DNA of 26,479 bases, taken from IMG/VR virus record IMGVR_UViG_3300024346_000435, positions 1 through 26,479 of that record, one strand, 5' to 3'. Position numbers and translations under genes: made by a program. This DNA comes from a virus. Shown here piece by piece: positions 35-24,965 of the stretch (position 1 is its first letter; the number at the start of each line of letters is the position of its first letter). The notes beneath the pieces were generated by a model that ran no database searches, was not told the DNA's origin, and saw only the letters and a program-made list of their open reading frames with translations.

Positions 35-633
35 CAGAAGTCCTCGCTGCTCATGGGTACATCGCCCTTCTCTACCTCAGATGCTTCGGCTTGGGTAGCC
101 GAGAAGCCATAGTCATTGAAGCCCATGTTGCCGCTGTTGGCCTGAATAACTTGCACAGCTTCGAGGCGCAGGCTCAGGCCAGCACCGACCGAGGCGACGA
201 AGTAAGCGTTAGCTTTGAACGCCACCTTGATCTGAGAGTTGTGGCCAATGATGCCCGTGAAGGGCTTACCATCAGAGCCAAAGAGGGCAGGCTTGCGCTC
301 GTACTTGCGGCCATCCTTAGTCTCGCCGCTCGCACCCAGCTTAAACTTAACCTTGTACAGCCCAGTCTCGTTGCCTTCCTTGTCGGTCAGCGGACGCACA
401 GGCGAGTCGGCCTGCTTGATCTTGGGCTTCTTGTGTTCAGTCATCATCGCCTTGATAGCCTGCACATACATCTCCTCCAGCATCTGGATGAAGTTGTTGT
501 GCTCGGTATCGTTCGGGTTAAGGACGATGGTTGCTTCGTAATCACCAGCCTCGTTGAACTTTGTGTTCGGCTCGTTGAGCTTCGGCCACAGGGTAGTTGC
601 AACTGGCGAGGTGATGATCTTGTTGTTGTTCAT
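34..633 (-). CDS. T7 gp2.5-like single-stranded DNA-binding protein
   Basis: The 199-residue product resembles phage T7 gp2.5-type SSBs, which coat single-stranded DNA and recruit polymerase and primase-helicase during replication. Supporting features are the small single-domain size, a central basic and aromatic OB-fold-like stretch (KVKFKLGASGE, GRKYERKPALFGSDGKP), and an acidic C-terminus ending in phenylalanine (SEVEKGDVPMSSEDF). An acidic tail with terminal Phe is the hallmark of gp2.5 and mediates its protein contacts. The ATG at 633 overlaps the RNA polymerase stop codon (ATGA), so translation is probably coupled. Its position directly after the polymerase gene matches several marine T7-like phages. 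The family call is based on tail, length and position rather than on an alignment. Confidence 0.82.
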   Translation of the reverse strand: MNNNKIITSPVATTLWPKLNEPNTKFNEAGDYEATIVLNPNDTEHNNFIQMLEEMYVQAIKAMMTEHKKPKIKQADSPVRPLTDKEGNETGLYKVKFKLGASGETKDGRKYERKPALFGSDGKPFTGIIGHNSQIKVAFKANAYFVASVGAGLSLRLEAVQVIQANSGNMGFNDYGFSATQAEASEVEKGDVPMSSEDF

Positions 634-3071
634 GAGAAGAAGTATTGGCTTTGGTTTAGAGTTGTGATGTCGAAGCTGCCCATCTCGGGAGGAGCTGGAA
701 CAGCCTCGGAGTTGTTGAGGCGCAGCTTAGTGTTCTCGGCAAACTCTTCAAGAAGATTCCCAGAGAATGTCTCAAGTGCTGCATCCTTGAGAGCTTGCGA
801 CAACAGATCCACTTGCGATGCAGGTACTCCGAAGGAGTCATGCACGCAGGTAATCTGGTATACGCCCCGCTCGGCTAGACGATTGACAGCCTTGACTAAG
901 ACGGTCGCGTCTAACGAGTGGATGAAGTTGGGGGACAGGGCTGACCGCTGCTTGGTGCGGCTCAGGGTCTTGTCCTCCTCGCGCATCTTGAAGACCACAT
1001 AGCGGTCGCCAAGATTGGTGCGGACATACGCACCTCGTGTGCTGTTGTACTTGTGCCGGACGAAGAAGCCAACGGGTGTAGTCCACTCGATGGCCTTGCC
1101 TTCGTCGGTGTGTAGGTTAGCTACCTCGTGCAGCCATGACATGGCAGCTCGTGCCCCAGTCACGATCTCATTGATGCTGGCCCAGACCATACGGTTGAGG
1201 TAGATCAGGTAGCGGTAGCTGTCCTCAGCGATGGGGGCTAGGCGGTTGGCGTAGCAATGGTCTGCGTAGTAGTCGCTTACATACTTCTGGCTGGTGTAGA
1301 TGCTGGCTCCGTAGGGCAGCACCATGACCGAGCGTTTAACCAGACCACGAGGTAGGCGGTGATGCCAGAACTCCAGCCACGCCTTGGACATCGGGTGCTC
1401 GTAGCTATCCTGTAGCTTCTTTAGCGTCAGGTCAGCCACACGCTGGTAGATATCCTGCGGTGCAGGCGAGGGTGCACAGTTGGTTGCATCCGCACCGTAC
1501 TGGTCGCGCAGCATGAGAGAGAACAACTGTAGGCCATTGTTAGATCCGTCAAGTTGGATCGGCAAATGGCTCAAAAATTTTTCACCCTCAACATTTGCTA
1601 CCTCAATGCACGCTGCGAGGAACTGCCAAGGCTTGTCGGCCTCAGCCCACCACAGGTCAGAGAGGGGATCACGGCCAGTAGCTTGGATGCGAGCTAGGTT
1701 GTCTCGTGTCCATGCTTCCCGTTCATCCCATGTGCCCTTGTCCATGCCAAAGGTGTTGGCGGTGTGGCGGTAAAGCCATTGCTTACCCCGACTGTCCAGC
1801 TTGACACCGTCACGGAACATCAACAGGCCGCGAGCTAAGTCATCGCCCTGCGGATTGAGGAAGGAGGGCACAGCGTACACCCGACCTCGGAAGTCAAGCT
1901 GATAGGGGAACCAGAACGGTTCAGCACCCATCTCCTTGGCTACCATCAGGGTGCGGCTAGTCCCAATACGAAGGGCTTGGTGCTCACGGTTACGGGTGTG
2001 GGCACGAGCAGCCATCTTCTTCCATTGGCGGTGCTCCTCGCTGTCCTTATCGCATTCTGGACGGGTAGGAGGAACCTCGTCGGTACGCTTGGGCAGGCAG
2101 GGCACATCCATGTCCCGCTCCCACAGCTCACGGGCCACATCGTAGACGGTGCGGTTGATCAGGAACGGTGTGTTCTGGATGTGGTTGACCGCTTGGTATA
2201 CGGCTGGACAGTTATCCTTGCTGTTGGTTGCAAGGACATCCTCGTCCACACCTTTGATCAGCTTGAGCTTGGGCAGCTCCTCTGTCCAGTAGCCCCCATC
2301 ATCGACAGTACGCCATGCTTTGGGCGGAGCGTTGAGCGGTAGCCAGAAGGGTTTAGCTGCGGCCAGCAGTTCGTGTGCTTTCTTCAGCCACTCGACGGTC
2401 TCGGGCGTAGGCATCACCAGTTTCATGGTGCTACGCTTTCCCGGAGTTGTCGGGTTGGCTACATTCTTGAAGTACAGCAGGCCGGAGGTCTCGACCATGA
2501 TCTCCAGCATGAACGCACCCACCCGCATCTGATCGCGGTGTGACCAGTCAGCTAGGCTGAGGGATGTGACCAACCACTTGAGGCTTTTGTTGGACTGGGC
2601 ACGGTTGCGTGCCTTGGTCTTGGTGCGCTTGTGCTTACGCTGGTGGTTGAGGAACTCGGTCTTGTCCTTCGCCTTGATGGCGCGGAGCATAGCCTCCTCA
2701 CGGAGGTGTGCCCCGACTGCATGGGCGATGGGCTGGTAGTACATACCCTTGGCTAGGCAGTCCATGATCACGCGAGCTGCGATGATGGATGCCACATCAG
2801 CGGGGATCGCTGCCAGCAGGGGAACTGATGCAGCGTACTGTCCAGCCACACCAGACTTGTACTTCTCTAGCATGGACTCGATGCGTCCAGTCATCCGGCG
2901 TGCTGCCTCGGTCATGAGGCAACGCTCGGGGCTGAAGTGGGTCGGTGCTACAGGCGCAATCATCTCAGCCTTCTGCTGCCCGTAGGCCACAGCTTGGCGA
3001 GAGCGATAGCGAGAGAGGCCGAGAGAACGCATTCGTTTCTCCCGTGCTCGTGTAGATTTCTTGTCGGTCAC
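630..3071 (-). CDS. T7-type single-subunit DNA-directed RNA polymerase
   Basis: This 813-residue protein belongs to the T7/mitochondrial RNA polymerase family and should transcribe the middle and late phage genes from phage-specific promoters. All polymerase signatures are present: the DFRGRVY motif (393-399), motif A with catalytic D508 (QLDGSNNGLQLFSLMLRD), motif B with K579 (RGLVKRSVMVLPYG), the PNFIHSLDA segment (714-722), and motif C with catalytic D745 (CVHDSFG). The protein ends in an aromatic tail (QYFFS), comparable to the FAFA end of the T7 enzyme, and is somewhat shorter than T7's 883 residues. It starts with GTG at 3071, overlapping the HD-hydrolase stop as GTGA, and its own stop overlaps the SSB start. 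It lies downstream of the early block and integrase, as in other integrase-bearing T7-like phages. Confidence 0.97.
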   Translation of the reverse strand: MTDKKSTRAREKRMRSLGLSRYRSRQAVAYGQQKAEMIAPVAPTHFSPERCLMTEAARRMTGRIESMLEKYKSGVAGQYAASVPLLAAIPADVASIIAARVIMDCLAKGMYYQPIAHAVGAHLREEAMLRAIKAKDKTEFLNHQRKHKRTKTKARNRAQSNKSLKWLVTSLSLADWSHRDQMRVGAFMLEIMVETSGLLYFKNVANPTTPGKRSTMKLVMPTPETVEWLKKAHELLAAAKPFWLPLNAPPKAWRTVDDGGYWTEELPKLKLIKGVDEDVLATNSKDNCPAVYQAVNHIQNTPFLINRTVYDVARELWERDMDVPCLPKRTDEVPPTRPECDKDSEEHRQWKKMAARAHTRNREHQALRIGTSRTLMVAKEMGAEPFWFPYQLDFRGRVYAVPSFLNPQGDDLARGLLMFRDGVKLDSRGKQWLYRHTANTFGMDKGTWDEREAWTRDNLARIQATGRDPLSDLWWAEADKPWQFLAACIEVANVEGEKFLSHLPIQLDGSNNGLQLFSLMLRDQYGADATNCAPSPAPQDIYQRVADLTLKKLQDSYEHPMSKAWLEFWHHRLPRGLVKRSVMVLPYGASIYTSQKYVSDYYADHCYANRLAPIAEDSYRYLIYLNRMVWASINEIVTGARAAMSWLHEVANLHTDEGKAIEWTTPVGFFVRHKYNSTRGAYVRTNLGDRYVVFKMREEDKTLSRTKQRSALSPNFIHSLDATVLVKAVNRLAERGVYQITCVHDSFGVPASQVDLLSQALKDAALETFSGNLLEEFAENTKLRLNNSEAVPAPPEMGSFDITTLNQSQYFFS

Positions 3072-3609: not shown

Positions 3610-3684
3610 TGGTGAAGCGGGTGGGAGTCGAACCCACATTTGGAGTCGCTAAAGCCCTCCGGCCTACCGTTGACTGACCGCTCC
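3610..3684 (-). tRNA. tRNA-like gene with encoded CCA, apparent anticodon TTA (possible attP)
   Basis: The minus strand can fold as a short tRNA. The acceptor stem GGAGCGG (5' end at 3684) pairs with CCGCTTC with one G-U, followed by discriminator A and an encoded CCA. The T arm is perfect (GTGGG-TTCGACT-CCCAC), and the D loop has the expected A and GG bases with three D-stem pairs. The anticodon arm is irregular: the outer pairs GGAG/CTCC form, but the two innermost pairs of a standard 5-bp stem are G-A and G-G mismatches. Taking the loop as CTTTAGC, the anticodon is TTA (3650-3652), which would read UAA. It could be a real tRNA, a decayed one, or a tRNA-derived attachment site, since it lies 74 bp past the integrase stop and integrases commonly target tRNA 3' ends. 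Isotype is uncertain. Confidence 0.6.
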
Positions 3685-3758: not shown

Positions 3759-4535
3759 TCAGATCCTAGCTACGGCAGACTGTAGGTCTACCATGTCTAG
3801 GTGAGAGTAGCGCATCGTTACCACAATTGAACTGTGGCCGAGCAGCTTCTGGACTACGGCAAGGTTGACCCCAGCCTTGACTAGGCGTGAGGCAAAGGTG
3901 TGCCGGAGTGAGTGGACTACCAGATCCTTATCAGTCAGGCCCGACAAAGCCTTGGCCCGATTGAAGTGGTAGTTCAGAGTGGCTTGCTTGATCGTGCCGC
4001 TGCGCCCTTGGCTCATAGCCATGCGTGCCTCGGCGTTGATCGGTACGGTGCGTGGCTTGCCGCCCTTCGTGTTAGCCACTCGGATGGTGTCACCTTGAAT
4101 GTCATCTGCACCAAGGCGGAGTGCTTCACCGACCCGCAGTCCTGTGTTCACGAGGAATGTACAGAAGTTGCGGTAGTCGGGAGGCAGGTACGAGAACAGG
4201 AGAGCCTGCTCTTCCTGCGTCAGGATACGGGAGCGAGGCTCACCCTCCCGCTCCTTACGGATGCGGAGCGGTGCTGCTACCTCGCCCAGCTCGTAGCCTA
4301 CCGCTGCCATCTTACCGAGGGCAGCTAGCTTGCGGTTGATTGTGGCCCCGCTCAGACCCTGACGCTTCAGCTCCTGCCGCACACACTCGATGTGCTTGGA
4401 GCCGAGAGCCTTGACGCTGGTGTTGGGGCCGACAATTCCTACAACGGTGCGAGCGTTGGCGACAAGGCCCAGCTCGTCCTTCTTACCTGCCCAGACTGTG
4501 CGCTCGGTGTACGAGCACAGCTCTTGGAGGTTCAC
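3759..4535 (-). CDS. int: Tyrosine recombinase, phage integrase
   Basis: The 258-residue protein is a compact tyrosine site-specific recombinase. The catalytic set is visible: R134 in NTGLRVGEAL, a lysine in the NTKGGKPRTVPI beta-hairpin (about 157-160), H208 and R211 in VHSLRHTFASRL, H234 in LLGHSS, and nucleophile Y243 in MRYSHL. The N-terminal ~95 residues form a SAM-like core-binding domain (SGATINRKLAAL). It should integrate or excise the phage genome at an att site, most likely the adjacent tRNA-like sequence. It starts with GTG at 4535, overlapping the upstream gene's stop as GTGA, so it is translated from the early operon. No excisionase or repressor is recognisable nearby. All active-site residues are intact, so it is unlikely to be a relic. 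Confidence 0.95.
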   Translation of the reverse strand: MNLQELCSYTERTVWAGKKDELGLVANARTVVGIVGPNTSVKALGSKHIECVRQELKRQGLSGATINRKLAALGKMAAVGYELGEVAAPLRIRKEREGEPRSRILTQEEQALLFSYLPPDYRNFCTFLVNTGLRVGEALRLGADDIQGDTIRVANTKGGKPRTVPINAEARMAMSQGRSGTIKQATLNYHFNRAKALSGLTDKDLVVHSLRHTFASRLVKAGVNLAVVQKLLGHSSIVVTMRYSHLDMVDLQSAVARI

Positions 4536-6088: not shown

Positions 6089-6361
6089 TCAGGGTAGGCA
6101 GACTTCCCAGAGGCCGACAAGTTCTGTGCGACCTTCCGGCGCAACATCCACTAGCTTGACCGTGCTGGGCCAGCAGTAGCCGAAGTCGTAGCCGCGCTGC
6201 ATCATGATGTCACGGTTGTTGCTTGCCGCCTTGGCACACTCAAGGGCGGTTGCCTCGTCGGTGTAGTAGTTCCAGTCCACCTTGTACCCGCCGCGAGTAT
6301 CGACTGGCTTGGGGTACGACATCCAAGGTTGGCTGGTCGTCTTAGTGTTCTTGCTCTTCAT
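6089..6361 (-). CDS. Hypothetical early protein (90 aa)
   Basis: The ATG at 6361 is preceded by AAAGGAACTATC, the same ribosome binding site and spacing as the next gene, and lies just after the multi-hairpin leader at 6394-6470. The product begins MKSKNTKTTSQPWMSYPKPV and is rich in aromatic residues (GGYKVDWNYYTDEATALECA, RGYDFGYCWP), with no membrane segment or recognised motif. It looks like a compact soluble early protein, possibly host-directed. The function is unknown. Confidence 0.75.
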   Translation of the reverse strand: MKSKNTKTTSQPWMSYPKPVDTRGGYKVDWNYYTDEATALECAKAASNNRDIMMQRGYDFGYCWPSTVKLVDVAPEGRTELVGLWEVCLP

Positions 6362-6393: not shown

Positions 6394-6470
6394 CTGACGG
6401 CCTCGTCAGGTGGTGCGTCACACCACTACATCTAGAGCGGAGAGTGTCCGCCCTAGTTGTTTCGGCCTAG
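6394..6470 (-). promoter_or_regulatory. Candidate phage promoter with multi-hairpin leader, copy A
   Basis: On the minus strand this contains the box CCGAAACAACTAGGG, then a 5-bp hairpin GCGGA-CACTC-TCCGC (6437-6451), then GTGGTG-TGACG-CACCAC (6410-6426) and CTGACG-AGGC-CGTCAG (6394-6409), followed by a ribosome binding site and the ATG at 6361. The same order of elements occurs upstream of two other early genes. If transcription begins at GGG, the RNA would start with a 5'-terminal hairpin, as in several T7-like leaders. The promoter role is inferred. Confidence 0.6.
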
Positions 6471-6471
6471 G

Positions 6472-7458
6472 TCACACCGCTACCAGAGCGGACATAACCT
6501 TGGCCTTGAATTCAGCAGCGTCACCGTAGATGTTGGCGTGCATCCGGCGTTCGCTGTTGTCGTTGCGGACGGTGCGTTCGTGATCAGTCCACTCGGTGAT
6601 CGAGTTGAAGATGCCCCAGAGGGAACCATCAGCGACTGCGTTCTTCGAGTTGTACAGCTTGGACTGCCACTCGGAGACCGTAGCCTGAGCCTTGCGCTTG
6701 GCACGCTCGTCGTCAGGCTTGCCGACCGCTGCGATGTACGCACGCTCGTAGATCTCCTGCACATCGGAGGTCTTAGGCTTGGTACGGTTGAGCTGGACAA
6801 CCTGAGCCTCGAAGGCACGGGCGGTCTCAACACCGAGCACAAGCTCGCGAGCGATGCGCTCGATCTTGAGGTGTACCGAGCGGGTGTGGCGCACCTTGTG
6901 GGCGTTGTTGCCAGCCTCACGCAGGGCCATGTTGTAGGTGTTGTTGCACACCACACGCACCGATGTGTTGAGGCAGCTAAACGCTGCGCTACCATCGTGT
7001 GAGTTGCCGAACATGGCGTAGGTGCGGACGATATCACCGTTGCCAGCGTCGAACACATGGGTGTGAGCACACACGAACGAGATAGCACCGCCCTTGAACG
7101 AGCCGCACGACTCGATGCGTACAGGTGCATCGGTGACGGCAGCGACACCGTCACGGATCATCTCGAACACTTCGCGGTTCTGCACAGGGGTGTAGCGGTC
7201 ACCGACCACACCGAGGACTGCACCATTGTCCGAGCGGACAACTGCACGGTGATCGGGCAGGGTAACACGCGCACCATCTTGAGCACCGCCGACCAAGGGC
7301 ATGGTCTGGATCGGGACGAGATGCACATCCCAGTTCAGGTAGCCAGCGGCCAGAGCCTGATCAGGTGTGAAGGTAGACGGCAGGACTTGGCCGAGGCCAT
7401 GCCATGCACGAGTACCAGCGAGAACGAGCGTGTCCGAGGAAGTGATGTTGTGAGCCAT
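6472..7458 (-). CDS. DUF932 family (phage/plasmid-like) protein
   Basis: The 328-residue product matches the DUF932 / phage-plasmid-like protein family. Typical blocks are the N-terminal AWHGLGQVLP, the middle VVGDRYTPVQNREVFEMIRD, and the conserved cysteine and asparagine region FSCLNTSVRVVCNNTYNMAL, followed by KVRHTRSVHLKIERIARELV. The family is widespread in phages and plasmids, and its biochemical activity is not settled. The ATG at 7458 has an AAGGAATC ribosome binding site, so the open upstream extension is discarded. The gene stands alone between two copies of the multi-hairpin leader (copy B upstream, copy A immediately downstream), making it an independently expressed cassette, probably at a high level early in infection. 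Confidence 0.85.
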   Translation of the reverse strand: MAHNITSSDTLVLAGTRAWHGLGQVLPSTFTPDQALAAGYLNWDVHLVPIQTMPLVGGAQDGARVTLPDHRAVVRSDNGAVLGVVGDRYTPVQNREVFEMIRDGVAAVTDAPVRIESCGSFKGGAISFVCAHTHVFDAGNGDIVRTYAMFGNSHDGSAAFSCLNTSVRVVCNNTYNMALREAGNNAHKVRHTRSVHLKIERIARELVLGVETARAFEAQVVQLNRTKPKTSDVQEIYERAYIAAVGKPDDERAKRKAQATVSEWQSKLYNSKNAVADGSLWGIFNSITEWTDHERTVRNDNSERRMHANIYGDAAEFKAKVMSALVAV

Positions 7459-7488
7459 GATAGATTCCTTGTTGGTTGTTGGTTGAGA

Positions 7489-7566
7489 CTGACGGCCATC
7501 GTCAGGCAGCGCATTACGCTGCGACAACTAGAGCGGAGAGTGTCCGCCCCAGATGTTTCGGCCTAG
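7489..7566 (-). promoter_or_regulatory. Candidate phage promoter with multi-hairpin leader, copy B
   Basis: The minus strand has the box CCGAAACATCTGGGG, the hairpin GCGGA-CACTC-TCCGC (7533-7547), then GCAGCG-TAATG-CGCTGC (7506-7522) and CTGACG-ATGGC-CGTCAG (7489-7505). A ribosome binding site and the DUF932 ATG (7458) follow. The second hairpin has a different sequence from copy A but the same position and stem length, so the structure is kept while the sequence changes. Confidence 0.6.
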
Positions 7567-7571
7567 CGTGC

Positions 7572-7856
7572 TTAGTAGTCCAGATCAGCCAGCATGGAGC
7601 GGCGATCACGGATGAAGTCTTCGCGGGTCTCAGGTGTGTGTAGAAAGTTGTGGTTTGCCTCGTACTTTAGGCCATCACACACACGATACAGTTCCTCGCG
7701 AACATCCCACTCTTTCGCAAGCACACCGACTACGGGATTGTCGAGGATGCGCTGCATCGAGGCACGCATCTCAGGTGATTCCTCGCAGGCGATGTGCGCT
7801 TCGAGTTGGAGGATGGTAGATTCGGAGAGGCGACGATTGTAGGTAGCTTGTTTCAC
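7572..7856 (-). CDS. Hypothetical helical early protein (94 aa)
   Basis: The chosen start is GTG at 7856, preceded by CCAAAGGAACCAACC, the standard ribosome binding site of this genome; the longer open frame has no such site. The product (starting MKQATYNRRLSESTILQLEA) is charged and helical, with the stretch EESPEMRASMQRILDNPVVG in the middle and a basic-acidic C-terminus (TREDFIRDRRSMLADLDY). There are no membrane segments or recognised motifs. The stop is TAA, followed after two codons by an in-frame TAG. It belongs to the first early transcription unit with the three genes upstream. Confidence 0.7.
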   Translation of the reverse strand: MKQATYNRRLSESTILQLEAHIACEESPEMRASMQRILDNPVVGVLAKEWDVREELYRVCDGLKYEANHNFLHTPETREDFIRDRRSMLADLDY

Positions 7857-7872
7857 GGTTGGTTCCTTTGGA

Positions 7873-8100
7873 TCAGAGGTTGTGGGCTGCGACGACATCG
7901 TCAACCCAACCAAGTTGTTTGATGGTGAGCCGCAGTTCGTAGCCAAAGCGGTCGTCGGTGAGCAAGCCGAGTTGCTCGACAAGGTTGACTGACGCGCTGT
8001 AGGTACGACCATCCTTATTAAGGACGACCATAGAGCCGTCATCGTCAACTTGGATGCTGAGTTTGCCGAGGTTAGCGGGTGCTTTGATAGTGCGTTGCAT
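7873..8100 (-). CDS. Hypothetical early protein (75 aa)
   Basis: The ATG at 8100 is preceded by AAAGGAACCAACT. The 75-residue product starts MQRTIKAPANLGKLSIQVDD and looks like a small alpha/beta protein: an acidic beta-rich N-terminal half (SIQVDDDGSMVVLNKDGRTY) and a helical C-terminal half (KQLGWVDDVVAAHNL). It has no cysteines, membrane segments or recognisable motif. It lies between the GP88-family gene and the 94-residue gene, each with its own ribosome binding site. Confidence 0.72.
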   Translation of the reverse strand: MQRTIKAPANLGKLSIQVDDDGSMVVLNKDGRTYSASVNLVEQLGLLTDDRFGYELRLTIKQLGWVDDVVAAHNL

Positions 8101-8130
8101 AGTTGGTTCCTTTGGTTGGAGGTTGGAGAA

Positions 8131-8925
8131 TCAGAGACGGACAACCATGCCCGTCGTATCCTTGCTCATGCGACCCTTAGCACGGAGGCCGACAATGCAT
8201 CCCTTCGGATCGCGGGTGCGGTCGTCCGAGATATCACCATCGATCACGGGAAGGCCGAGGTAGGTAGTCGGCAGAGGTTGCTTGCGCTTGGTCGAGAAGA
8301 CCACCGCCACATTGAGACCGCGAGAGGCCGCTTCGACAATCTGAGAATCCGTAGTCATCTCAGAACGCGAGAGAGTCACATGGTGATCCAAGGCCTTGGT
8401 GTCCCAATTCTTGGTGTATTCGTAGAATGCGAGGTCGGCATCGATGTGGGCGCAGGCTTCACGGATCGCGGCACGAACCTTGGCAAGGCCTTGGAGGTCG
8501 CTTGTGCCATTGAGACGGATCGTCACACGGATGCGACGACCTAGCTTGCGTTGACGCGAGGCGATGCGCTTGGCAGCATCGGAGGCGAGGTCGGCAATAA
8601 AGGCTTGCCGATCCAGAAGCCAGTAGAGGCTACGGTTTACCTGAGCGCGTTGGCATCCTTGCATCACCATGCGACCTGCGTGCTCACCGAGGCAAGCAGC
8701 GTAGCAACCTTGGCTCATGAAGGGACAGAATGCACCCGCCTTGAAGTACAGAACCAAGGCGAGATCGGCATCTCCCGATTCCTCGGACTTGATGGTCTTA
8801 GCTGAGGCCGACCAGAGGCCTGAGGCACACTTGCGCTTGCCGCGCTTAGTGTACTTGAAGGGATCGACCCCGCTCGCCTTGAGGCTTGCGAGGATTGAGC
8901 TTGAGGCTTCTACTGCGAAGGTCAT
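8131..8925 (-). CDS. GP88-family phage protein
   Basis: The 264-residue product matches the phage 'gene product 88' (GP88) family as I know it: an N-terminal cysteine cluster (CPFMSQGCYAACLGEHAGRM), then NRSLYWLLDRQAF, then RVTIRLNGTSDLQG, DLAFYEYTKNW, HVTLSRSEM, GLNVAVVFSTKRKQPLPTTY and the terminal VIDGDISDDRTRDP...IVGLRAKG. The family is common in phages; no firm biochemical role is known to me. The cysteines suggest metal binding. The start at 8925 is chosen because its ATG overlaps the previous stop (ATGA); an in-frame ATG three codons earlier (8934) is also possible. It is in the first early transcription unit behind leader C. Confidence 0.8.
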   Translation of the reverse strand: MTFAVEASSSILASLKASGVDPFKYTKRGKRKCASGLWSASAKTIKSEESGDADLALVLYFKAGAFCPFMSQGCYAACLGEHAGRMVMQGCQRAQVNRSLYWLLDRQAFIADLASDAAKRIASRQRKLGRRIRVTIRLNGTSDLQGLAKVRAAIREACAHIDADLAFYEYTKNWDTKALDHHVTLSRSEMTTDSQIVEAASRGLNVAVVFSTKRKQPLPTTYLGLPVIDGDISDDRTRDPKGCIVGLRAKGRMSKDTTGMVVRL

Positions 8926-9134
8926 AGGGCACATCCTGTGGCGAGAGCTTTGCCGCCGATATTGATCTCATTAGGGTACGGGCGAGTATTGAGCTGGACT
9001 TCTGCACCGCAGATACGGCAGCGTCCAAGCTGCACAAAGCGGGTTCCGAATTCAATCGGCGCATCCCACTTCATGCTGTGGCCACGAAACTTGGTCGAGC
9101 TTTGAGCTTGCTTCTTTAGGGTAGAGAGCTTCAT
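8922..9134 (-). CDS. Small CxxC protein, first early gene (70 aa)
   Basis: This is the first gene after the non-coding region. The ATG at 9134 follows AAAGGAACCCT, and the stop overlaps the GP88-family start (ATGA). The product begins MKLSTLKKQAQSSTKFRGHS and contains a CRICGAEVQLNTRPYPNEIN segment, a half zinc ribbon, ending IGGKALATGC. Small proteins with this 'C-x-x-C-G-A-x-V-x-x-N-T-x-P-x-P-N-E-I' pattern occur in other phages as uncharacterised proteins. The two C-terminal elements could form a four-ligand zinc site. Function unknown. Confidence 0.78.
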   Translation of the reverse strand: MKLSTLKKQAQSSTKFRGHSMKWDAPIEFGTRFVQLGRCRICGAEVQLNTRPYPNEINIGGKALATGCAL

Positions 9135-9154
9135 AGGGTTCCTTTGATGTTGAT

Positions 9155-9246
9155 GCATCGGAGCTACCGATGCTGAGACTCTTCAGGCAAGGAGCGGCCT
9201 TGCGACACTTAGAGCCGGAGAGTGTCCGGCCCTAGTGTGTTTCGTC
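9155..9246 (-). promoter_or_regulatory. Candidate phage promoter with multi-hairpin leader, copy C
   Basis: The minus strand has the box CGAAACACACTAGGG, then GCCGGA-CACTC-TCCGGC (9214-9230), GCAAGG-CCGCT-CCTTGC (9187-9203) and GCATCGG-TAGCT-CCGATGC (9155-9173), followed by the ribosome binding site and ATG at 9134. The first stem is one base pair longer than in copies A and B, with a matching C and G added on both arms, which supports selection for pairing. The arm GACACT (9204-9209) can also pair with AGTGTC (9221-9226) as an alternative fold. Confidence 0.6.
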
Positions 9247-9278
9247 ACAATTCAGGCTTACCGATTCCTTTGCGTTTG

Positions 9279-9740: not shown

Positions 9741-9800
9741 TGTCGAGCTGTCACCTCGACACTCATGCCGGAGAGTGTCCGCCCCAACAGATTCCGAAGC
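9741..9800 (-). promoter_or_regulatory. Diverged leader element in non-coding DNA, copy D
   Basis: The minus strand contains TTGGGGCGGACACTCTCCG, sharing the GGGGCGGACACTCTCCG core with copies A and B. The upstream box is degenerate (CGGAATCTGTT). A downstream 7-bp hairpin, TGTCGAG-7 nt-CTCGACA (9741-9761), follows as in the other copies. An alternative perfect 7-bp stem, GACACTC/GAGTGTC (9758-9764 with 9773-9779), would exclude both. No gene follows for about 600 bp, so it could drive a leader RNA or mark an origin. Confidence 0.5.
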
Positions 9801-10040
9801 CCTTATAGACTTCGCGTGCGCGCGCGCGAGGGCGTGGAATCGTCGTAAGTACCTGCAAATACAGCACTTGCAACGGATTGCTAGTCCCTAGGAGGGGGGA
9901 TTTAGGCCCGACTCGATAACGATACCCATCTCGGATTTTTCCGCCAAACTATTTCAGGCGGATAAGGCCACTTTGGAGGCGGCAATCCAGAGATAAAGAT
10001 GACCCCCTAGCTAGCACCATGCTAACCAGAGGGCCATGCC

Positions 10041-10071: not shown

Positions 10072-10100
10072 TAACCAGTATAGCCTACAGACGGCTCATG

Positions 10101-11288
10101 TCAACGCTCAGTCACCACAATATGCCCCGTCAGCGTCACAGCCGAGGAGCTGGTGTTCTTCAGGAAGTAGTGCAGGTTGCTACCCGTGTACAGACGGATG
10201 CCCGGATCCGAGTACTGGCTGACCAACGCCACATTGACTTGGCTAGCCGACACCACCATGAGGGGTCGAGCTACGATCAGCGACACCGTTCCAGCAACCA
10301 AGCTTGTGCCTAAGGTAATTGACTGGATGCTTTGGACGCCTTTGCAGCCTGCCGCTAGTTGGAACCAGACCACATTGCCAAGCACGGGTGTCGCAGGGAT
10401 TTGGTCGCCAGCAATAGCCGCCAGCGTAGCCGTCTTACCTGCAACACCATCGCTGTTGGTGTAGGTCACCGTGCTGTTGGTAATCGCAGCGGCGTTTGTA
10501 TTGGCCGTGGTGGTCACCAGACCAATGATGTAGCCTGCGCCGTTTGTGCTGCCGTCTAGATCACGCGCAGGGAAGGTTGGGGTCGTAATAGCCTGAGCGG
10601 TCGTAGTCGTCACCACGAGGCCCGTATTGACCCACACGATGTCCGCCAGCATGATCGTGCAGAGGGTCGTCGTAGCAGCCGCAGCCTCGGTGATGTACAA
10701 CTGACCAGTCGGTGTCCAGAGCGGTAGGCAACCGTTGTCGGCTGCTGTCATGCCGTCTGTAGCTCGACCGTTGATGCCGGGGGTGCCGGGCGACCAAGCA
10801 CCGTTAAAGCCTGCGTCCTTCCAGAACGCATACCAGCACGCCGTGCCCTCTGTCGCTGTACCGACCTTGTTGACCCCAATGACCCTACCAGTCACCCCGA
10901 CATTGGATGGGTTGTTGACCTTCTTGTCGCCGCTCGGGTCAAACACGCACCATTCGCCTCCGTCAGTCCATTGCAGGGACTCTCCGGCAGACAGCACGGC
11001 CTTGAATAGGCAGTACTCAGTACCGCTGACATCCTTTTTAACCGTCACGGTGTTAGCCGTAGTCGCATGACGGTTGAACACCGAGATGCTCTTGATCCCT
11101 CGCTGGGTAGACGCAGCAGGTGCTGCCACAATCACGGTCGTACTGACTGTGTTGATCGTACCCTGACTGTCAGCAGGCGTGAACGCGCTGGTCGTCATGT
11201 CCACATACGACACCGCATAGTCGATATTGGCTGTGCTGCTGGTCGTTAGCTCAAGTACTTTGGTCGTAGCGTCAAGTGTGATTGCCAT
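10101..11288 (-). CDS. Putative tail fibre / receptor-binding protein (395 aa)
   Basis: The start at 11288 (MAITLDATTKVLELTTSSTA) follows a perfect GGAGG ribosome binding site with 8-nt spacing. The protein is rich in Thr, Ala, Val and Gly with almost no long helices, as expected for beta-rich tail-fibre modules. The N-terminal part resembles short structural proteins that hold an intrinsic beta-sandwich (STQRGIKSISVFNRHATTAN, TVKKDVSGTEYCLFKAVLSA, GESLQWTDGGEW). The central part has beta-strand repeats, and the C-terminus (NLHYFLKNTSSSAVTLTGHI) may be the distal tip. It is the last gene of the late block, next to two other tail-type genes. Receptor binding is inferred from position and composition. 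Confidence 0.65.
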   Translation of the reverse strand: MAITLDATTKVLELTTSSTANIDYAVSYVDMTTSAFTPADSQGTINTVSTTVIVAAPAASTQRGIKSISVFNRHATTANTVTVKKDVSGTEYCLFKAVLSAGESLQWTDGGEWCVFDPSGDKKVNNPSNVGVTGRVIGVNKVGTATEGTACWYAFWKDAGFNGAWSPGTPGINGRATDGMTAADNGCLPLWTPTGQLYITEAAAATTTLCTIMLADIVWVNTGLVVTTTTAQAITTPTFPARDLDGSTNGAGYIIGLVTTTANTNAAAITNSTVTYTNSDGVAGKTATLAAIAGDQIPATPVLGNVVWFQLAAGCKGVQSIQSITLGTSLVAGTVSLIVARPLMVVSASQVNVALVSQYSDPGIRLYTGSNLHYFLKNTSSSAVTLTGHIVVTER

Positions 11289-17189: not shown

Positions 17190-20100
17190 TTAGTCTTGGG
17201 TGTCCAATACGGACGGAGCGATGCCCATCTTTGCGTCACGCTTCATCAAGCGCAGCTCGTTACGCACTTGCTTGAGTTCAGGCGACTCATTGACCAGCAT
17301 TTGCCATGCACGGGCACGGTACTTAGCCAGAACAGCACGCATAGCGTAGATGCGGGGGCTATCGACCAAGTCCGTACCGATGGGGGTCATACGCTGATAG
17401 CGTTCAGTTTGAATTAACGCTTCAGCAGCTTGGCGTACAGTCTTGTTGTTGATCACAACCTGACCAGCCAGTTCTTGGTAACGGTCGTAAGCGTTAGCTC
17501 CACGGCCCGTCTTGATGTTACGCAGGTCAAGCCCTTCAACCGTGTAGCTCGGCGGTTTGAGAGCTTCACCCAGAGAGATCAGCTCGCGATCCAGCGCATT
17601 TGTCGAGCGTTCCTTGACGGAGATGGGCGAGAACAGGTCGGGGCCGAGTTTATCAGCCTTCTTGACTGGCAGACCGAACGCATCACGCATCGGCGGCAGT
17701 TCTTCCGACAATCCCGGAGTCGATGCCCACACATGGTTGATAAGACCATCAAGCATCTCGCCATCATTCGGGTTACGGACATACTCGTCCGACAGGTCAG
17801 TCACCGTGCGGCGCATACCTTGGTACGGAACCAGCGATGCACCGTAACGCTTGGCCCACTCTGCACCCTTGTGGCCGGACTCATCGCCAAAGATCTCGAC
17901 GAAGGACTTGATGCCTTGCAGGTAGCTCTTCTGAGTGAGCTGGTTGGTGATGGCGTAGAACGCCGAGGCCCAGATCTCCTCGCCAAGCTGGAGGCCATCG
18001 CGGTCAGCGTGGAGGTACTGAACCGCCATAGTGCTGTCGGCAATGAATCCCAGCATGGAGCTGAACGGGTCAACTCGGTTGAAGCTGATCCATTCGTTGG
18101 TGACAGGACTCTTGAAGCTGTACGGTTGGAAGCCAGCGTTACGCCATGTCTTGGACTCGTCGGGGTTCTTGGGGCCACGGCCAGTCAAGTTGCCGCTAGC
18201 TGCCATCGACCACGCCATACCCAGTACCGCAGTACCGAACAGGGCGCGTCCAGCAGCGTCTGCACGCACGGTCGGATCTTCGCTAGACAGCTCGCGTAGG
18301 AAGCGAGATTCCTGTTCGCGCAGAGAGCGACTAACGAATGCCGGAGCACCCATGCGATCCATGCGCGTGGCTGCACGGTTGCCAAAGCCCAGCTTGACGA
18401 AGTCCATGAGCGGGGTAACAGGGTTACGATCCACCGCATAGATCAGCGCGTTGATAGGCGTGCTAACGAACGGCAAGAACACTCGCATAGCGGGGTGGCG
18501 AGTTACTGCGTTGATCACAGTACGCTGCCAGTCATAGCGAGGGTCTGCTTGCAGCGTAGCCTCAAGTGCCGTGTTACGGGCACGCTGAGATGCTTCACGG
18601 AAGTTTGTAGCGACCGTACCGCTGTTGCGCCAGTACTCGTCACGGTAGTTTTGTGCGTAGTCCAGCAGCTCATCTGCGGTGGCATGGGGGCCAAGGACAG
18701 TACGAGCGCGTTCCTGACCTTCACGGATCAGACGCTGGTTCGACACGAACTCGCCGTTGACGATGGCAAGATCCATAGCCTGTTGCATACGGGCAGCACG
18801 CTCGGGGCCAACCACACCAGTTGCATCCAAGTTGTCGAGGACATTGGCACGCAGGTGACCACGGTAGTTGAGCTGCTTGAACAACTCGTCGCCCGTCAAG
18901 ATCAAGCGCATGGGGAGGCGCACAAGGCCACCCATAAAGTCGAAGGACACTTCGGCAGCACGCTGTGCTTGGGGGCCAGCCACATTACCAGCACCACGGG
19001 CCATCATGTTGGACAGGGGGATGTTGTCGCGGGTGAACGCCTGTTGGCGAGTCCGCTCCATACCCATGTTCGTACCAATCGGACGGCCTTCAGCAAACGC
19101 ACGGCTCATCACACCCAGACCGTCCAGCAGACCAGTAGCCATACCGATGTAGGCGTTGAGGCCGCTGCGGATAGAACGGGCGTTACCCGTAACCATACCG
19201 CCAAGCATACGCTCCAGCGGAATAGTCATGGTGGTCAGGGCGTTACCTAGGAACTGCACGCCAGCCCATGTGGTTGACGAAGACACGAGCGAGTTCATCC
19301 ACCACTCGTTGTGGAAATCCCAGAAGCCCAGCGTGTTGAAGTCACGCGAAGCGCGGGAGATGATGCGGCTTACACGGCCTGTGACATCGCCACCTTCACG
19401 CACTTGGATGTCCAGAAGCTGCTGGAGACGCTCCATCGACAACAGGACAGCCTGACGGCCACCCATACGCTGAAGCATTTCGTCCAGACGGGCCTCACCG
19501 TACATCGTTTGCAGAGTACGGACAGCGTCCAAAGTCGCCGTAGACACGCCATGCGGGGCCGTAGCCGGGGGCGGGGGAACAGCCGTAGAGGTGGGCGGAA
19601 CCACAGTCGGCGTGACGGGAGGCGTAGCCGTGCTGGGAGCGGTTGCGTTGAGCGCATCCAATCGACGCTGGAGGCCACCACGCACCGCTTGCAGACGGTT
19701 AACGCGAGTACGCAGGGCATCGACTTGCGCTTGCAAAGCAGACACTTCTGCGCTGTTGCTGGCAGTTGCTGCGGCTAGGCGAGTATTGGCATCTGCAAGC
19801 TCAGTATTGAGCTGCTGGATCTGCGACACAGCCTGTTGCAGCTCATCGCTGACTTGCGAGATCGGCGCAGACGGAGTTCCTGCCGTAGCCGCACCAGTTC
19901 CACCAACACCAGCTCCAACGCCAGCAGCCACAGGCTGACCAGCGGGGGCCGCATCGGGGCTACCAAGTGTGGGGCGGTACTCTGGCATCAGATCGCGACT
20001 GATGTCAGCACGCAGCGAGTGCAGCAAGCGTCCGGCCTCAGAGCCAACACTCTTGACTGCACCAACCAAGTCACCAAGGGCGGCAATCTTGATAGCTGCG

Positions 20101-23100
20101 GTCAGCATTTCGGCAGACGACACGCTGTTCGGATCGGCAGCTTGCTTACGCACCAACGATGTCAGGTCGGTCATGACCTCATCGTTCAGCTTGAGCATCA
20201 TGAAGCGAGCCTGCCACAGCTCACCACGGAGGCTGGCGACATCGCGAGCGCGGCCCTTAAGGTGACGGGCCATCTCGAACACAGTCATGCCAGACGCATC
20301 GGCAAGCGCACGCAGGCCGTCTTCTTCCATCTGGCGCAGGCTGTAGTCCTGCACGCTGTTGATGCCACGACGAGCTAGGTCACGGCCAATCACATAGCGT
20401 TCGATGACGCGCAGGAAGCTACCCTCGCGGCGATCCACACCAAGGACGGAGAAGTTCAGCGCAGCGCGGCGAGTTAGCAGCCACTCTTGCAGAGCTTCAT
20501 CGGCGTTAAGGGTGCGGGGGGTGATTCCAGCAACGGTTCCGGGATGGTTCTCGAACCAGTAGATCAAGTCATCAGCATCCTCGCCCGTCAGCGGAGTATT
20601 GCTCTGACCGATCTCTTCCGGCAAGCGGCGACGACGACCATCAGGTGTCAGCACAGGGCCGCTAGGCGGCGGAGTCGGGGGCGGAGTAGCACCCGCACCG
20701 CCACTCGGGGGAGTAGGCGGAGGAGGCGTACCACCAGCACCACCGCTGGGAGGAGCAGGAGGCGTAGGCGGAGGAGTAGCACCGCCAGCACCACCACTCG
20801 GGGGAGTTGTAGGCGGAGCAGTCGGGGGAACAGTAATATCCCCAGATGGCGGAGTCGGGATGGAGGCAGACGACTCTGTAGGTGCTGCCGCTACATCCGT
20901 GGCATCGATGTTACTCGGGGCAATCAGCGACTCCAGCTCGTTAGCAATATCGTTGACATCGCCAGACTTCCAAGCCTCCGTCTTCAGCAGAGACTTGATC
21001 TGCTTGCTTGTGACGGTGTGCCCAGCCTCAGCTAGCAGCTCGACAGCTTGCTCGGCAAAGTCGTTAGCCAGCCTCTTGTCATCGACACCAAACAGCGAAG
21101 CCTCGCTACGCATCTCCTTCCAGAGATCCGAGAGGCTCATCGATGTGTCTTCGACAACACTACGGGCAGTACGCTCCGCTTCAGCAGCACGAGCCTCTGC
21201 CGGATTGGTGACCATATCCGCATCCGGCTCGACAGGGGCGGTGGACGGGAACTGAGAGCGTGTAGGCGGAGGTGTCGAAACCTCTACTTCTTCAGCCGCT
21301 TCGGCTACATCATCCAGCAGGCCGGGTTCGGGTGCAGGTTCTGCTGCCGCCGTGGTCGGCTCTTCGACCCTTGTACCTGCAACACTAGCTGCTTCGTCTG
21401 CGGGTAGAGCATCCGAAGTCTTACCAGCCTGCATCTGCTCCAACGCACTCACTAGGTCGTAGTGCTTGCCATCGTTCAGTTCACGCAGCAGCATCCGCCG
21501 CGCATCCTTACCCAATGTCCGCGAGCTGGTCGCCCCTGACTGGCGGAGGCGCATCACAAACTCTTCAAACTTGGAGCTGATGGCCTCGACATACTCTTTA
21601 CCGAAGTCGTCGATAAAGGCTTTGACCATGTCCACATTGCCGTCGATCAACGCTTCCACAGCCATAGCGATGTTTTCGCCGTGGCGGTCTACAGCTTCAA
21701 AGTCGATTTCTGTAGGCTCGTCAACCTCAGCAGTAGTAGCACCAGAAGCCTCTTTGGCCTTATCTGCGATACGCTGCCGTTCGCGAGCTTCTAGGGTTAG
21801 ACGATCCGCTTCCTTCTGCGATACCGTACCAGCTTGCACGCCTTCAAGTGCGGCTTCAGCACGAGCACGGGCAGTTGCAGCGCGGTTCTCAGCTAGGACG
21901 GTAGGATCGCTACGCTTCCTGCGGGTAGCCGTGACCTTGTTTGCACGCTTGAGCTTGGTGGGTTGAGCGGTCTTGAGCTTGCTGACTACCAGCTCAATGT
22001 CCTTAGCGTTGAAGCGGATGTTCGCACCCGACAGGCTAAATGCACGCTTATCGGCCAGCACCTGAGCATCGGTCTGGTTCTTGTTCTTAGCAACCCCAAG
22101 CTCGTCCATCTGCGCTTTGAACTCGCGCACACGGGTAGCTACCGTCTTGAGGTCGTCCTGCGACAAGCCATACTGCTTTGCAACTTTAGTAAGCGTTTCA
22201 GTAGCGGACTCAACACCGCTGGTTTGTAGGCGGATTACAGCCTTTTGGTACGCCTTCTCCAAGTCATCGATAGATGTGTTGGAATCGATGTCACGGTCTA
22301 GCTCTAAGAACTCGCTAGATGGGCGTTTAACTTTACTGCCCGTACTTCCCTCAGCAGCCGCTTCTAGGCTTGTCGTGCTTTGCTTGCTCTTCTCGCTGGT
22401 GGTGATTAGCAGCTCGCGAAGTTCATCTGTCTTCTTAGCGGACACCTCTTTGAGCTTCTCGATAGCCTCCTTGACGGCATCGTCAGAGACTTCCACACCA
22501 GCGGCCTTCAAGAACTCAACAATGCGTTCTCTAGACTTAGATCCGGGCTTGGTTGCGGAGTAGCGCACAAGAGCCAGCAAGACGCTACCGCCCGGTGCGT
22601 CAGCATCGACAACAACATCGACAGCATTGGGGCCACTACCAATGGTGGGGTGTTGGCGAGTCTTTCGGAGAGCCTCGTCAAACCCGTTCATGGAGGTGTC
22701 GTATGGCAGGTTGATGTCCTTGCCGGACTTACCTGAAGCCCCAGCAAGCTCGACCATATCGTTGACCTTCTCGACGAACTCGTCGCTAAAGTCGGGGATC
22801 GTGTACGAGTAAGCCGTAGTAGACGACACATCGCCCAGCGAAGACAGGCGCGTAACCGTTGAATTGGCGTTGTCGATACGCCCCTTCATGAACTGGTTGA
22901 TCTGGTGATCTAGCGCGTTCTTGCCGAACTTGTAGGCAAACAGCGCGGAGAAGTCAGACCACATAAGCTGGGCCTGAGCAAGCAAGGCGCGGACACCGCC
23001 GTCCTTGATTGTCATCAGCTTATCGATGCGTGCGGACGCTTTAAGCGTAGCGTGGTGCGCCCACCACTCTGAGGGGCTAATGAGGTGGTACTCGTCGTTG

Positions 23101-24965
23101 GCAAGGATCTCTTGCAGAGCCTGACGGCGAACCTTACCGTCTACCGAGCGCAGGTTCTGGAAGCGAGCCTTAGCATCGGGGTTAGTACGCAGGTGTGCGG
23201 CCTGCTCACGCACGAACTGATCCTGAAGACGCTTGACCATCTTCGGCTGGAGCTTGCGCTCTAGCGAGTGGAACAGCTCGTGCATCAGGGTGCTGCGAAC
23301 CTTGCCGCTTTGCAGGGCAACGCCGTAGATGCTTACGGCCTTGGTGGCGTAGTTGTAGGAGCCGTCCGCCTCACTACCAAAGCTCTTCTTGCGGAAGTAC
23401 ACCTTGACATCGTCAAAGTGCCGCTCACCGATGGATGTTACCAGCGTGAACAAGATGTCCTTGTCCCGCTGATCCATGTTCATATCTACAATCTTGGTGT
23501 CCGCCAACAGGTTGTTGACGGTCGTCTTGTAGATGACACGGTCGTAGGCGTTGCGGTCTGTACCGAACAACAGAGACTGAGTGCCGACATCCTGACGGCT
23601 GGCCTGTTCAGTATTAGCCAGCTTTTTGAGCTGATTCCGCAGCGGATCCACGCTGTTGATCTGCTTCATCGGCTCAGGCTTGTTAATAGCCATGTCCCAG
23701 ACGAAGGTCATGTCTTTCAGATCCTTACGCCAGCCGGGGTAGGTATCCTTGAAGACCGAGGTTGTGGTCTCGTTACCGATGCGCGAACGGACATTGATGT
23801 CCAGCGACTCGGCAAACTGTTTCTCTGCTGCGTAGATCTTGCGGAGAGCCTTGGTTCCGCCCTCCAGCTTGAGACCCTTGAGCATAAGCTGCGGACGCTT
23901 AGTAGGCGATCCCAGCTTGGCAGCTTCTTCGGCGGTAGCTTCGGCCTTAGCAGCGAGGCTGCGGACAGCCTTACCCAAGAACTGACCATCGCGGTACAGC
24001 TCCATGACAACCGTATCGGTTCCCGGCGAATCCACAAAGCGTGTTTCGATGCCGTCCCTAGCTAGGGCATCAGAGATGGTGGACTTGTATGCGCCGACAA
24101 CCTCATCAATGTTGAAGGTGTCCACATCGCTGGCCGCATCAATAGACAGGCCAGAAGCCGCTCTGTCCTTCTCGGCAGCAATGTTGATCTGACGGTCGAT
24201 GAAGGAATCGATTTCCTCCTCAAGAAGGTTGGATGCCTTGAACGCAGCTTCAGAAGGTGATGCGCCAGCATCTCGCATCTTCTTGTACGCCTTGGTCATC
24301 TTGGCCCCGCCGAACAGCATTCGCGTAGCTGCGTCAAACGGCAAGCCTAGGATGCCACCCTCCACCATGTTCTTGAGGCGACCTTCAAAGTCGGAGTCAT
24401 CCATCTCCGTCTTGAGGTAATCGCTGACCACATTCGCGTAGGGCGTATCCTTCAGCAGGTCGGAGAGGCGACCATCGCTGCCCTCAAACGCTGCAAAGTC
24501 AATCACCGCACTACGAGCGGCCTCAGACACCAGCGTATCGCGAGCCAGCCACTTACCCGCCTTGCCCAGCTTTCCGGCCTTACCAGCTAGGCCGAGTGCG
24601 CTGAACGGGATCAGGAACTGTGTCAGACCTTCGGTAAGACCGCCAGCCCAATGCCGAGAGACACCAAGAATGCGGTCTTCATCCTTGTAGTCCGGCAGCA
24701 TATCGAAGCTAGCCATATCGGCCAGACCGTAGATACCCTGCACCATGCCCTCGATGCCGCGAGGCACGCCCATCAGAACATCTTCAAAGATGTCTCCTGC
24801 GGACATAGCGTCTTCGACTTCGGGGCGAGCTAGCGCATCACCGCCACGCTGCTTCCAATCGTAGCCACCCGTGCGGAACCAGTTCGACGGAGAGCTGAAG
24901 ATGTTCGGCTGCTCGGTCATGTCCGGCTGGTCGAACGGATCTTGTTCGTTTGTGAAGTCTTGCAT
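17190..24965 (-). CDS. Giant internal virion / ejection protein with metallopeptidase domain (2591 aa)
   Basis: Positional counterpart of T7 gp16, but about twice its length (1318 residues). Regions in order: N-terminal segment with a Gly/Ala-rich hydrophobic patch (FLIPFSALGLAGKAGKLGKA, about 117-136) and AVIDFAAFEGSDGRLSDLL, common in podovirus ejection and large polyvalent proteins; a metallopeptidase-like domain with MHELFHSLERKL (H562, E563, H566); a long charged helical middle; a Pro/Gly repeat linker of the form PPSGGAGGTPPPPTPP (about 1365-1441); a coiled coil (about 1705-1768, ELQQAVSQIQQLNTELADAN); a second Pro/Val linker (about 1774-1805); and a C-terminal ~700-residue region (from DFHNEWWMNSLVSSSTTWAG) resembling the C-termini of large virion-injected proteins. 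I see no lytic transglycosylase domain like that of T7 gp16. It is probably injected with the DNA; protease substrate unknown. Confidence 0.8.
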   Translation of the reverse strand: MQDFTNEQDPFDQPDMTEQPNIFSSPSNWFRTGGYDWKQRGGDALARPEVEDAMSAGDIFEDVLMGVPRGIEGMVQGIYGLADMASFDMLPDYKDEDRILGVSRHWAGGLTEGLTQFLIPFSALGLAGKAGKLGKAGKWLARDTLVSEAARSAVIDFAAFEGSDGRLSDLLKDTPYANVVSDYLKTEMDDSDFEGRLKNMVEGGILGLPFDAATRMLFGGAKMTKAYKKMRDAGASPSEAAFKASNLLEEEIDSFIDRQINIAAEKDRAASGLSIDAASDVDTFNIDEVVGAYKSTISDALARDGIETRFVDSPGTDTVVMELYRDGQFLGKAVRSLAAKAEATAEEAAKLGSPTKRPQLMLKGLKLEGGTKALRKIYAAEKQFAESLDINVRSRIGNETTTSVFKDTYPGWRKDLKDMTFVWDMAINKPEPMKQINSVDPLRNQLKKLANTEQASRQDVGTQSLLFGTDRNAYDRVIYKTTVNNLLADTKIVDMNMDQRDKDILFTLVTSIGERHFDDVKVYFRKKSFGSEADGSYNYATKAVSIYGVALQSGKVRSTLMHELFHSLERKLQPKMVKRLQDQFVREQAAHLRTNPDAKARFQNLRSVDGKVRRQALQEILANDEYHLISPSEWWAHHATLKASARIDKLMTIKDGGVRALLAQAQLMWSDFSALFAYKFGKNALDHQINQFMKGRIDNANSTVTRLSSLGDVSSTTAYSYTIPDFSDEFVEKVNDMVELAGASGKSGKDINLPYDTSMNGFDEALRKTRQHPTIGSGPNAVDVVVDADAPGGSVLLALVRYSATKPGSKSRERIVEFLKAAGVEVSDDAVKEAIEKLKEVSAKKTDELRELLITTSEKSKQSTTSLEAAAEGSTGSKVKRPSSEFLELDRDIDSNTSIDDLEKAYQKAVIRLQTSGVESATETLTKVAKQYGLSQDDLKTVATRVREFKAQMDELGVAKNKNQTDAQVLADKRAFSLSGANIRFNAKDIELVVSKLKTAQPTKLKRANKVTATRRKRSDPTVLAENRAATARARAEAALEGVQAGTVSQKEADRLTLEARERQRIADKAKEASGATTAEVDEPTEIDFEAVDRHGENIAMAVEALIDGNVDMVKAFIDDFGKEYVEAISSKFEEFVMRLRQSGATSSRTLGKDARRMLLRELNDGKHYDLVSALEQMQAGKTSDALPADEAASVAGTRVEEPTTAAAEPAPEPGLLDDVAEAAEEVEVSTPPPTRSQFPSTAPVEPDADMVTNPAEARAAEAERTARSVVEDTSMSLSDLWKEMRSEASLFGVDDKRLANDFAEQAVELLAEAGHTVTSKQIKSLLKTEAWKSGDVNDIANELESLIAPSNIDATDVAAAPTESSASIPTPPSGDITVPPTAPPTTPPSGGAGGATPPPTPPAPPSGGAGGTPPPPTPPSGGAGATPPPTPPPSGPVLTPDGRRRRLPEEIGQSNTPLTGEDADDLIYWFENHPGTVAGITPRTLNADEALQEWLLTRRAALNFSVLGVDRREGSFLRVIERYVIGRDLARRGINSVQDYSLRQMEEDGLRALADASGMTVFEMARHLKGRARDVASLRGELWQARFMMLKLNDEVMTDLTSLVRKQAADPNSVSSAEMLTAAIKIAALGDLVGAVKSVGSEAGRLLHSLRADISRDLMPEYRPTLGSPDAAPAGQPVAAGVGAGVGGTGAATAGTPSAPISQVSDELQQAVSQIQQLNTELADANTRLAAATASNSAEVSALQAQVDALRTRVNRLQAVRGGLQRRLDALNATAPSTATPPVTPTVVPPTSTAVPPPPATAPHGVSTATLDAVRTLQTMYGEARLDEMLQRMGGRQAVLLSMERLQQLLDIQVREGGDVTGRVSRIISRASRDFNTLGFWDFHNEWWMNSLVSSSTTWAGVQFLGNALTTMTIPLERMLGGMVTGNARSIRSGLNAYIGMATGLLDGLGVMSRAFAEGRPIGTNMGMERTRQQAFTRDNIPLSNMMARGAGNVAGPQAQRAAEVSFDFMGGLVRLPMRLILTGDELFKQLNYRGHLRANVLDNLDATGVVGPERAARMQQAMDLAIVNGEFVSNQRLIREGQERARTVLGPHATADELLDYAQNYRDEYWRNSGTVATNFREASQRARNTALEATLQADPRYDWQRTVINAVTRHPAMRVFLPFVSTPINALIYAVDRNPVTPLMDFVKLGFGNRAATRMDRMGAPAFVSRSLREQESRFLRELSSEDPTVRADAAGRALFGTAVLGMAWSMAASGNLTGRGPKNPDESKTWRNAGFQPYSFKSPVTNEWISFNRVDPFSSMLGFIADSTMAVQYLHADRDGLQLGEEIWASAFYAITNQLTQKSYLQGIKSFVEIFGDESGHKGAEWAKRYGASLVPYQGMRRTVTDLSDEYVRNPNDGEMLDGLINHVWASTPGLSEELPPMRDAFGLPVKKADKLGPDLFSPISVKERSTNALDRELISLGEALKPPSYTVEGLDLRNIKTGRGANAYDRYQELAGQVVINNKTVRQAAEALIQTERYQRMTPIGTDLVDSPRIYAMRAVLAKYRARAWQMLVNESPELKQVRNELRLMKRDAKMGIAPSVLDTQD

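Follow-up and report, generated by a model that had tools for sequence, protein, structure and literature searches.

The 26,479-nucleotide stretch analysed here, referred to as the window, is a 26.5-kb virus record (IMGVR_UViG_3300024346_000435) of a T7-like phage with its main genes on the minus strand, and its gene set includes a single-subunit RNA polymerase, a tyrosine integrase, a T7-type terminase, and DUF932 and GP88 proteins. Judging from their sequence, three repeats in the window (A, B and C) are very likely to be type II hammerhead self-cleaving ribozymes that cut the early RNA of this T7-like, integrase-bearing phage into units. A previous sequence-only reading of the same DNA had described them as a promoter box followed by a multi-hairpin leader; all three copies are present where that reading placed them, and all are read on the minus strand.

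Element order, core and covariation

Alignment of the three copies revealed a common GAAACA, a hairpin with a CACTC loop, UGU-H, a second hairpin with differing arms, and CUGANGA. In each copy the elements run in the order stem II, GAA-A15.1, stem III, U16.1-H17, predicted cut, stem I, CUGANGA, stem II, a permuted order that is that of the type II hammerhead and is matched letter for letter in A, B and C. Stems I and III are closed by loops and stem II is open in the window copies, as in the type II layout. The required core positions, and the criteria for mispairs next to the core, are those of PMC3088659; the core (C3 U4 G5 A6 N7 G8 A9, G12 A13 A14, A15.1-U16.1 and H17) is complete in all three copies and in four further copies from a related genome, G001, and the core-adjacent pairs (1.1-2.1, 10.1-11.1 and 15.1-16.1) are without mispair in A and C. 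A strict type II structure scan of both strands of the window returned exactly three sites, namely A, B and C, against a single type II match in 40 single-strand shuffles of the window; the type I/III order (CUGANGA ... GAAA) had no match in the window. The three elements, each assigned by strict scan, alignment and covariation, are composed as follows.

6399..6467, minus strand: ribozyme A, type II hammerhead, 99.3 bits with the covariance model R1 (see below), of which it is a training sequence; stem II GGCC 6467-6464, GAAA 6463-6460, stem III to U16.1 at 6428, H17 = A at 6427, stem I hairpin 6426-6410, CUGACGA 6409-6403, stem II GGCC 6402-6399; predicted cut 6427/6426
7494..7563, minus strand: ribozyme B; GGCC 7563-7560, GAAA 7559-7556, H17 = C at 7523, stem I 7522-7506, CUGACGA 7505-7499, one extra U at 7498, GGCC 7497-7494; predicted cut 7523/7522
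9173..9250, minus strand: ribozyme C; stem II UUGUGAC 9250-9244, GAAA 9243-9240, H17 = C at 9204, stem I 9203-9187, CUGAAGA 9186-9180, stem II GUCUCAG 9179-9173 with a U-U mismatch; predicted cut 9204/9203

Several features reported in the sequence-only reading are borne out, including the CACTC-loop hairpin, the extra C-G pair in copy C, the downstream ribosome-binding sites, and a second hairpin that is altered in sequence and retains its pairing (the stem I arms are GUGGUG/CACCAC in A, GCAGCG/CGCUGC in B and GCAAGG/CCUUGC in C). The shared box CGAAACA-N-CT is also present, but it is not a separate element, corresponding instead to the GAAA core and the first pairs of stem III. The proposal of a promoter box ahead of a leader therefore does not hold, since the box belongs to the ribozyme and must be transcribed for the ribozyme to work, and so does not lie upstream of the start site of an RNA folded in this way.

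Covariation was assessed over seven copies, three from the window and four from G001 (IMGVR_UViG_3300042568_000126), a 42-kb record that matches the first 7.9 kb of the window at 94%. The four strict type II copies of G001 are homologues of A, B and C together with a new copy, E2, which sits before a 145-aa open reading frame (ORF), has GGUC/GACC as stem II where A has GGCC/GGCC, and is without a third hairpin. Over the seven copies 97.3% of pairing cells were paired, compared with 83.5% after shuffling and 34-51% for slid structures, and the covariation score of 0.443 exceeded the 0.137 of shuffles and the values of slid structures, which reached 0.119 at most. Both-sided changes were found at five pairs (four of six in stem I and one of four in stem II); the core-proximal pairs of stem III are invariant and hence uninformative on covariation. 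RNAalifold, which was not supplied with a structure, returned the hammerhead with an unpaired core as the consensus of the seven copies. Covariation thus supports the hammerhead structure. The sequence-only reading had pointed to compensatory change in relatives as the comparison on which it could fail; stems I and II do compensate, and the element survives. Its broader claim, that pairing conserved over sequence signals an RNA function, with processing among the options it named, is upheld as well.

A number of observations weigh against this assignment. The seven copies are few and closely related, so that the covariation counts are not independent events. The extra U that separates CUGACGA from stem II in copy B might slow this ribozyme or abolish its activity, if judged by the criteria of PMC3088659; the G001 homologue, B2, is without this U, and loop I also differs between B and B2. 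A pseudoknot between loop I and the 3′ tail, typical of type II, could be drawn by inspection with four pairs only in A (UGAC/GUCA) and B2 (ACUG/CAGU), and is unclear in B, C, E2 and C2. An alternative pairing of the CUGANGA strand, corresponding to the third hairpin of the sequence-only reading, has a predicted energy about 2 kcal/mol below that of the hammerhead in A and B under a model without tertiary contacts (for A, -36.3 vs -34.4 kcal/mol).

6394..6409, minus strand: third hairpin in A, CUGACG-AGGC-CGUCAG, in which the CUGANGA strand takes an alternative partner
7489..7505, minus strand: third hairpin in B, the same alternative pairing as in A, -37.6 vs -35.9 kcal/mol

As a generally conserved functional hairpin this element was rejected: CUGACG/CGUCAG competes with the core in A and B, the hairpin of C differs from it, and E2 lacks one. 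A plausible order for A and B would be cleavage first and refolding into the CUGACG/CGUCAG hairpin second, given that GGCC, the upstream partner, has already been transcribed when CGUCAG emerges.

A further point against the assignment is that Rfam reports no hammerhead for the window copies, either at the gathering cut-off or at E values up to 5-10, probably owing to a 66-position model with a strict cut-off. Even clear type II copies from pelagiphages fall short of the 37-bit cut-off of Hammerhead_II (RF02276), so that the non-match bears on the Rfam label and not on the structural type. R1, a covariance model made from the seven window and G001 copies only, detects type II hammerheads in pelagiphages that are unrelated and were not used for training (E 1.7e-13 to 7.6e-8). 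At two of these places Hammerhead_II matches too (HTVC109P, E 5.3e-6; HTVC168P, E 1.3e-4; both below cut-off). With both models meeting at the same sites, these pelagiphage copies serve as intermediates that link the window elements to the known family. RAGATH-1 (RF03152) matches one site in Eistla at 24.7 bits, again below its cut-off. Standard Rfam annotation overlooks these phage ribozymes.

Proposed processing of the early transcript

From the sequence, core match, covariation and genomic position of the repeats we infer cleavage, stabilisation of the resulting ends and a purpose, which is very probably that the early polycistronic transcript processes itself. Host RNA polymerase probably begins a long early RNA at a promoter near 10,090, and this RNA would carry the ribozymes between gene blocks. 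During transcription stems III and I would form, the CUGANGA strand and stem II would close the core, and the cut would fall between the two hairpins; hammerhead cleavage leaves a 2′,3′-cyclic phosphate and a 5′-OH. Ribozyme A starts a few nucleotides past the stop codon of DUF932, and B lies at a similarly short distance past the stop of the preceding ORF. The upstream mRNA would end in the stem III hairpin just past its stop codon (predicted stability of this hairpin, -17 to -25 kcal/mol). The downstream mRNA would begin with a 5′-OH at the base of stem I, about 65-72 nt ahead of a start codon, and both new ends would carry hairpins that may stabilise them. The predicted units are four ORFs including GP88 (C to B), DUF932 alone (B to A), and the genes from A onward, including the integrase and RNA polymerase.

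10077..10104, minus strand: candidate sigma-70 promoter of the host, TTGACA-N16-TATACT, directed into the early region, with an identical sequence in G001
8922..9131, minus strand: 69-aa ORF, first gene past ribozyme C
8131..8934, minus strand: GP88 family protein (PF17338), between ribozymes C and B
6472..7458, minus strand: DUF932 protein, the sole gene between ribozymes B and A
6089..6361, minus strand: 90-aa ORF, first gene past ribozyme A
3759..4535, minus strand: tyrosine integrase, downstream of ribozyme A
630..3071, minus strand: T7-like single-subunit RNA polymerase, downstream of all three ribozymes

The candidate promoter matches sigma-70 at 11 of 12 positions, and no host sigma-70 promoter was found within the leaders of A, B and C. 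Directly after it lies a terminator-like hairpin (9999-10037, minus strand), followed by some 750 bases without an obvious gene. Adjoining the integrase is a tRNA-like gene (3610-3684, minus strand) whose anticodon, UUA, would read the UAA stop; it is kept in G001 (L057:7666-7740, minus strand), and a suppressor tRNA and an attachment-site fragment are candidate readings. Elsewhere in the window a 2591-aa ORF (17190-24965, minus strand) encodes a proline-/glycine-rich repeat around 20664-20818. In a comparison that includes L061 and G001, contigs whose other genes can differ far more have RNA polymerase proteins of 99-100% identity, which suggests recent exchange of the polymerase block. Relatives of the polymerase and DUF932 proteins were sought in GTDB genomes and none was found.

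The stem III motif and competing explanations

The sequence GGGGCGGACACTCTCC is invariant in stem III, and GGACACTCTCCG has four exact occurrences in the window, all on one strand; with the three-site result of the type II scan, this puts the likeness of the copies well above chance. The invariant motif recurs without the catalytic core at two places: G001 31927-31946 (minus strand), a lone stem III hairpin with a 10-pair stem in a gene leader where a ribozyme could have been, and a fourth, partial copy in the window that the sequence-only reading had missed.

9769..9789, minus strand: element D, TGTTGGGGCGGACACTCTCCG without the hammerhead core, a ribozyme relic or promoter-like motif; R1 16.2 bits, E 0.063

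Element D was rejected as an active ribozyme, having neither GAAA nor CUGANGA in place; in its G001 homologue, CTAGGTGTCGC and a hairpin resembling stem I are still present. An exact search of viral contigs with a stem III 15-mer found nothing recognisable as the element besides G001, and no hammerheads in the other 42 contigs.

We considered whether stem III doubles as an SP6-like promoter for the phage RNA polymerase (T-T/A-GGGGC-N-GACACTCT), such that RNA reading through folds into the ribozyme and cleaves while RNA begun inside stem III, without the GAAA strand, stays uncut. The sequence-only reading had offered a related alternative with GGGCGGACACTC as the SP6-like promoter core; that motif occurs without the ribozyme core at D and at one G001 site, and before no late gene. 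Such a dual element would account for a motif that stays constant among paralogues while stem I varies. It would also fit the coreless occurrences at D and G001 31927-31946, the motif keeping throughout to the early region and to the strand that is transcribed. The -10 T/G and GACACT also fit the SP6 promoter layout, GACACTATAG occurs three times in the SP6 locus, and at the position that aligns with N748 of T7 the polymerase has R, like that of SP6, although this comparison of the specificity loop yields one informative residue and is too weak to decide. Set against these points, a weight-matrix scan finds no comparable late-gene site in 26 kb (window) or 42 kb (G001), and the repeated motif before late genes that marks T7/SP6-type promoters is lacking, all strong sites in both genomes being early. 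The motif is without a G-rich start after it, stem III sequences are variable in other T7-like phages, and D may be a ribozyme relic, since its G001 homologue still resembles a decayed ribozyme. We consider a promoter function for stem III unlikely, and a slightly bolder extension of it, in which the same DNA would set self-cut RNA (read-through from the host promoter) against uncut RNA (start inside the ribozyme) and so couple the switch from host to phage polymerase to RNA processing, a little less likely again.

That the repeats are hammerhead-derived, were spread by duplication and are now inactive relics is much less probable. The decayed appearance of D and G001 31927-31946, the extra U in B and the change in its loop I relative to B2 would fit such decay, but the core is intact in seven of seven full copies from two phages while stem I has diverged with compensation. 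The least probable explanation, by a narrow step, is a promoter and structured leader serving 5′ protection or translation control without cleavage, which draws on the location ahead of ribosome-binding sites, the strong hairpins and the threefold repetition. It leaves unexplained the exact coincidence of the invariant letters with the hammerhead core, the covariation of stem II across the two sides of the element, and the absence of the third hairpin from E2.

Hammerheads of T7-like phages and known systems

We scanned 79 further T7-like loci, chosen by polymerase homology and uncorrected for relatedness, for all three permutations, and found 30 strict hammerheads in 12 of them (19 type I, 7 type III and 4 type II). 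All 30 are on the same strand as the RNA polymerase gene and upstream of it (297 kb), with none downstream (441 kb) and none on the opposite strand of the 79 loci; a reversed-sequence control gave no type I/III and three weak type II matches. Cultured pelagiphages carry them (three each in Eistla EXVC025P and HTVC109P, two in HTVC168P), and Caulobacter phage S2B has at least one clear type III hammerhead (L067:651-705) near the start of its early region. The records shown for these four annotated phages leave their hammerheads unannotated. The strict scan found no hammerheads in HTVC105P, CRP-125, CRP-227, LUZ100 or MedDCM-OCT-S45-C18.

Among uncultured T7-like contigs, one to five early-region hammerheads of types I, II and III were seen in each of L093, L107, L113, L117, L120 and L121, and likewise in L123, L126, L131, L133, L143 and L146. 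A weaker type I candidate, likewise without annotation, was noted in S2B at about L067:2554-2613.

The question of what phage and prophage hammerheads are for dates from 2011. A single defined location in many T7-like phages, the early region upstream of the polymerase gene, ties them to processing of the early transcript, and the cultured pelagiphages provide phage-host pairs for RNA-end mapping.

The window ribozymes are of a kind already known from prophage clusters (PMC3088659). Perreault et al. (2011) described type II hammerheads and clusters around prophage genes and proposed that they process long phage RNAs; tandem prophage hammerheads of three bacteria were active in vitro, and the Agrobacterium tumefaciens set was active in E. 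coli (PMC3088659). Like those clusters (PMC3088659; RF02276), the window copies have the permuted order, a full core and an open stem II, and several copies, each on the transcribed strand, flank single genes or short blocks in the neighbourhood of an integrase. Unlike them, they have a long stem III (about 13-14 pairs) with an invariant CACTC-loop motif, go undetected by the Rfam model, and lie in a T7-like genome with its own RNA polymerase, upstream of that gene. With the type I/III hammerheads of T7-like phages (L093, L113, L117, HTVC109P, Eistla) and RAGATH-1 (RF03152) they share the core and the early-gene site upstream of the polymerase, whereas the permutation differs and stem III is variable in those phages. 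We found neither the placement of hammerheads upstream of the polymerase in T7-like phages nor a promoter-like stem III described in the open-access literature. In T7 itself, the early message is cut into units by RNase III. The window ribozymes would resemble the T7 sites in cutting one early polycistronic RNA into hairpin-ended units before and around gene 1, but T7 uses a host protein enzyme where here the RNA would cut itself, so that the analogy is one of role only.

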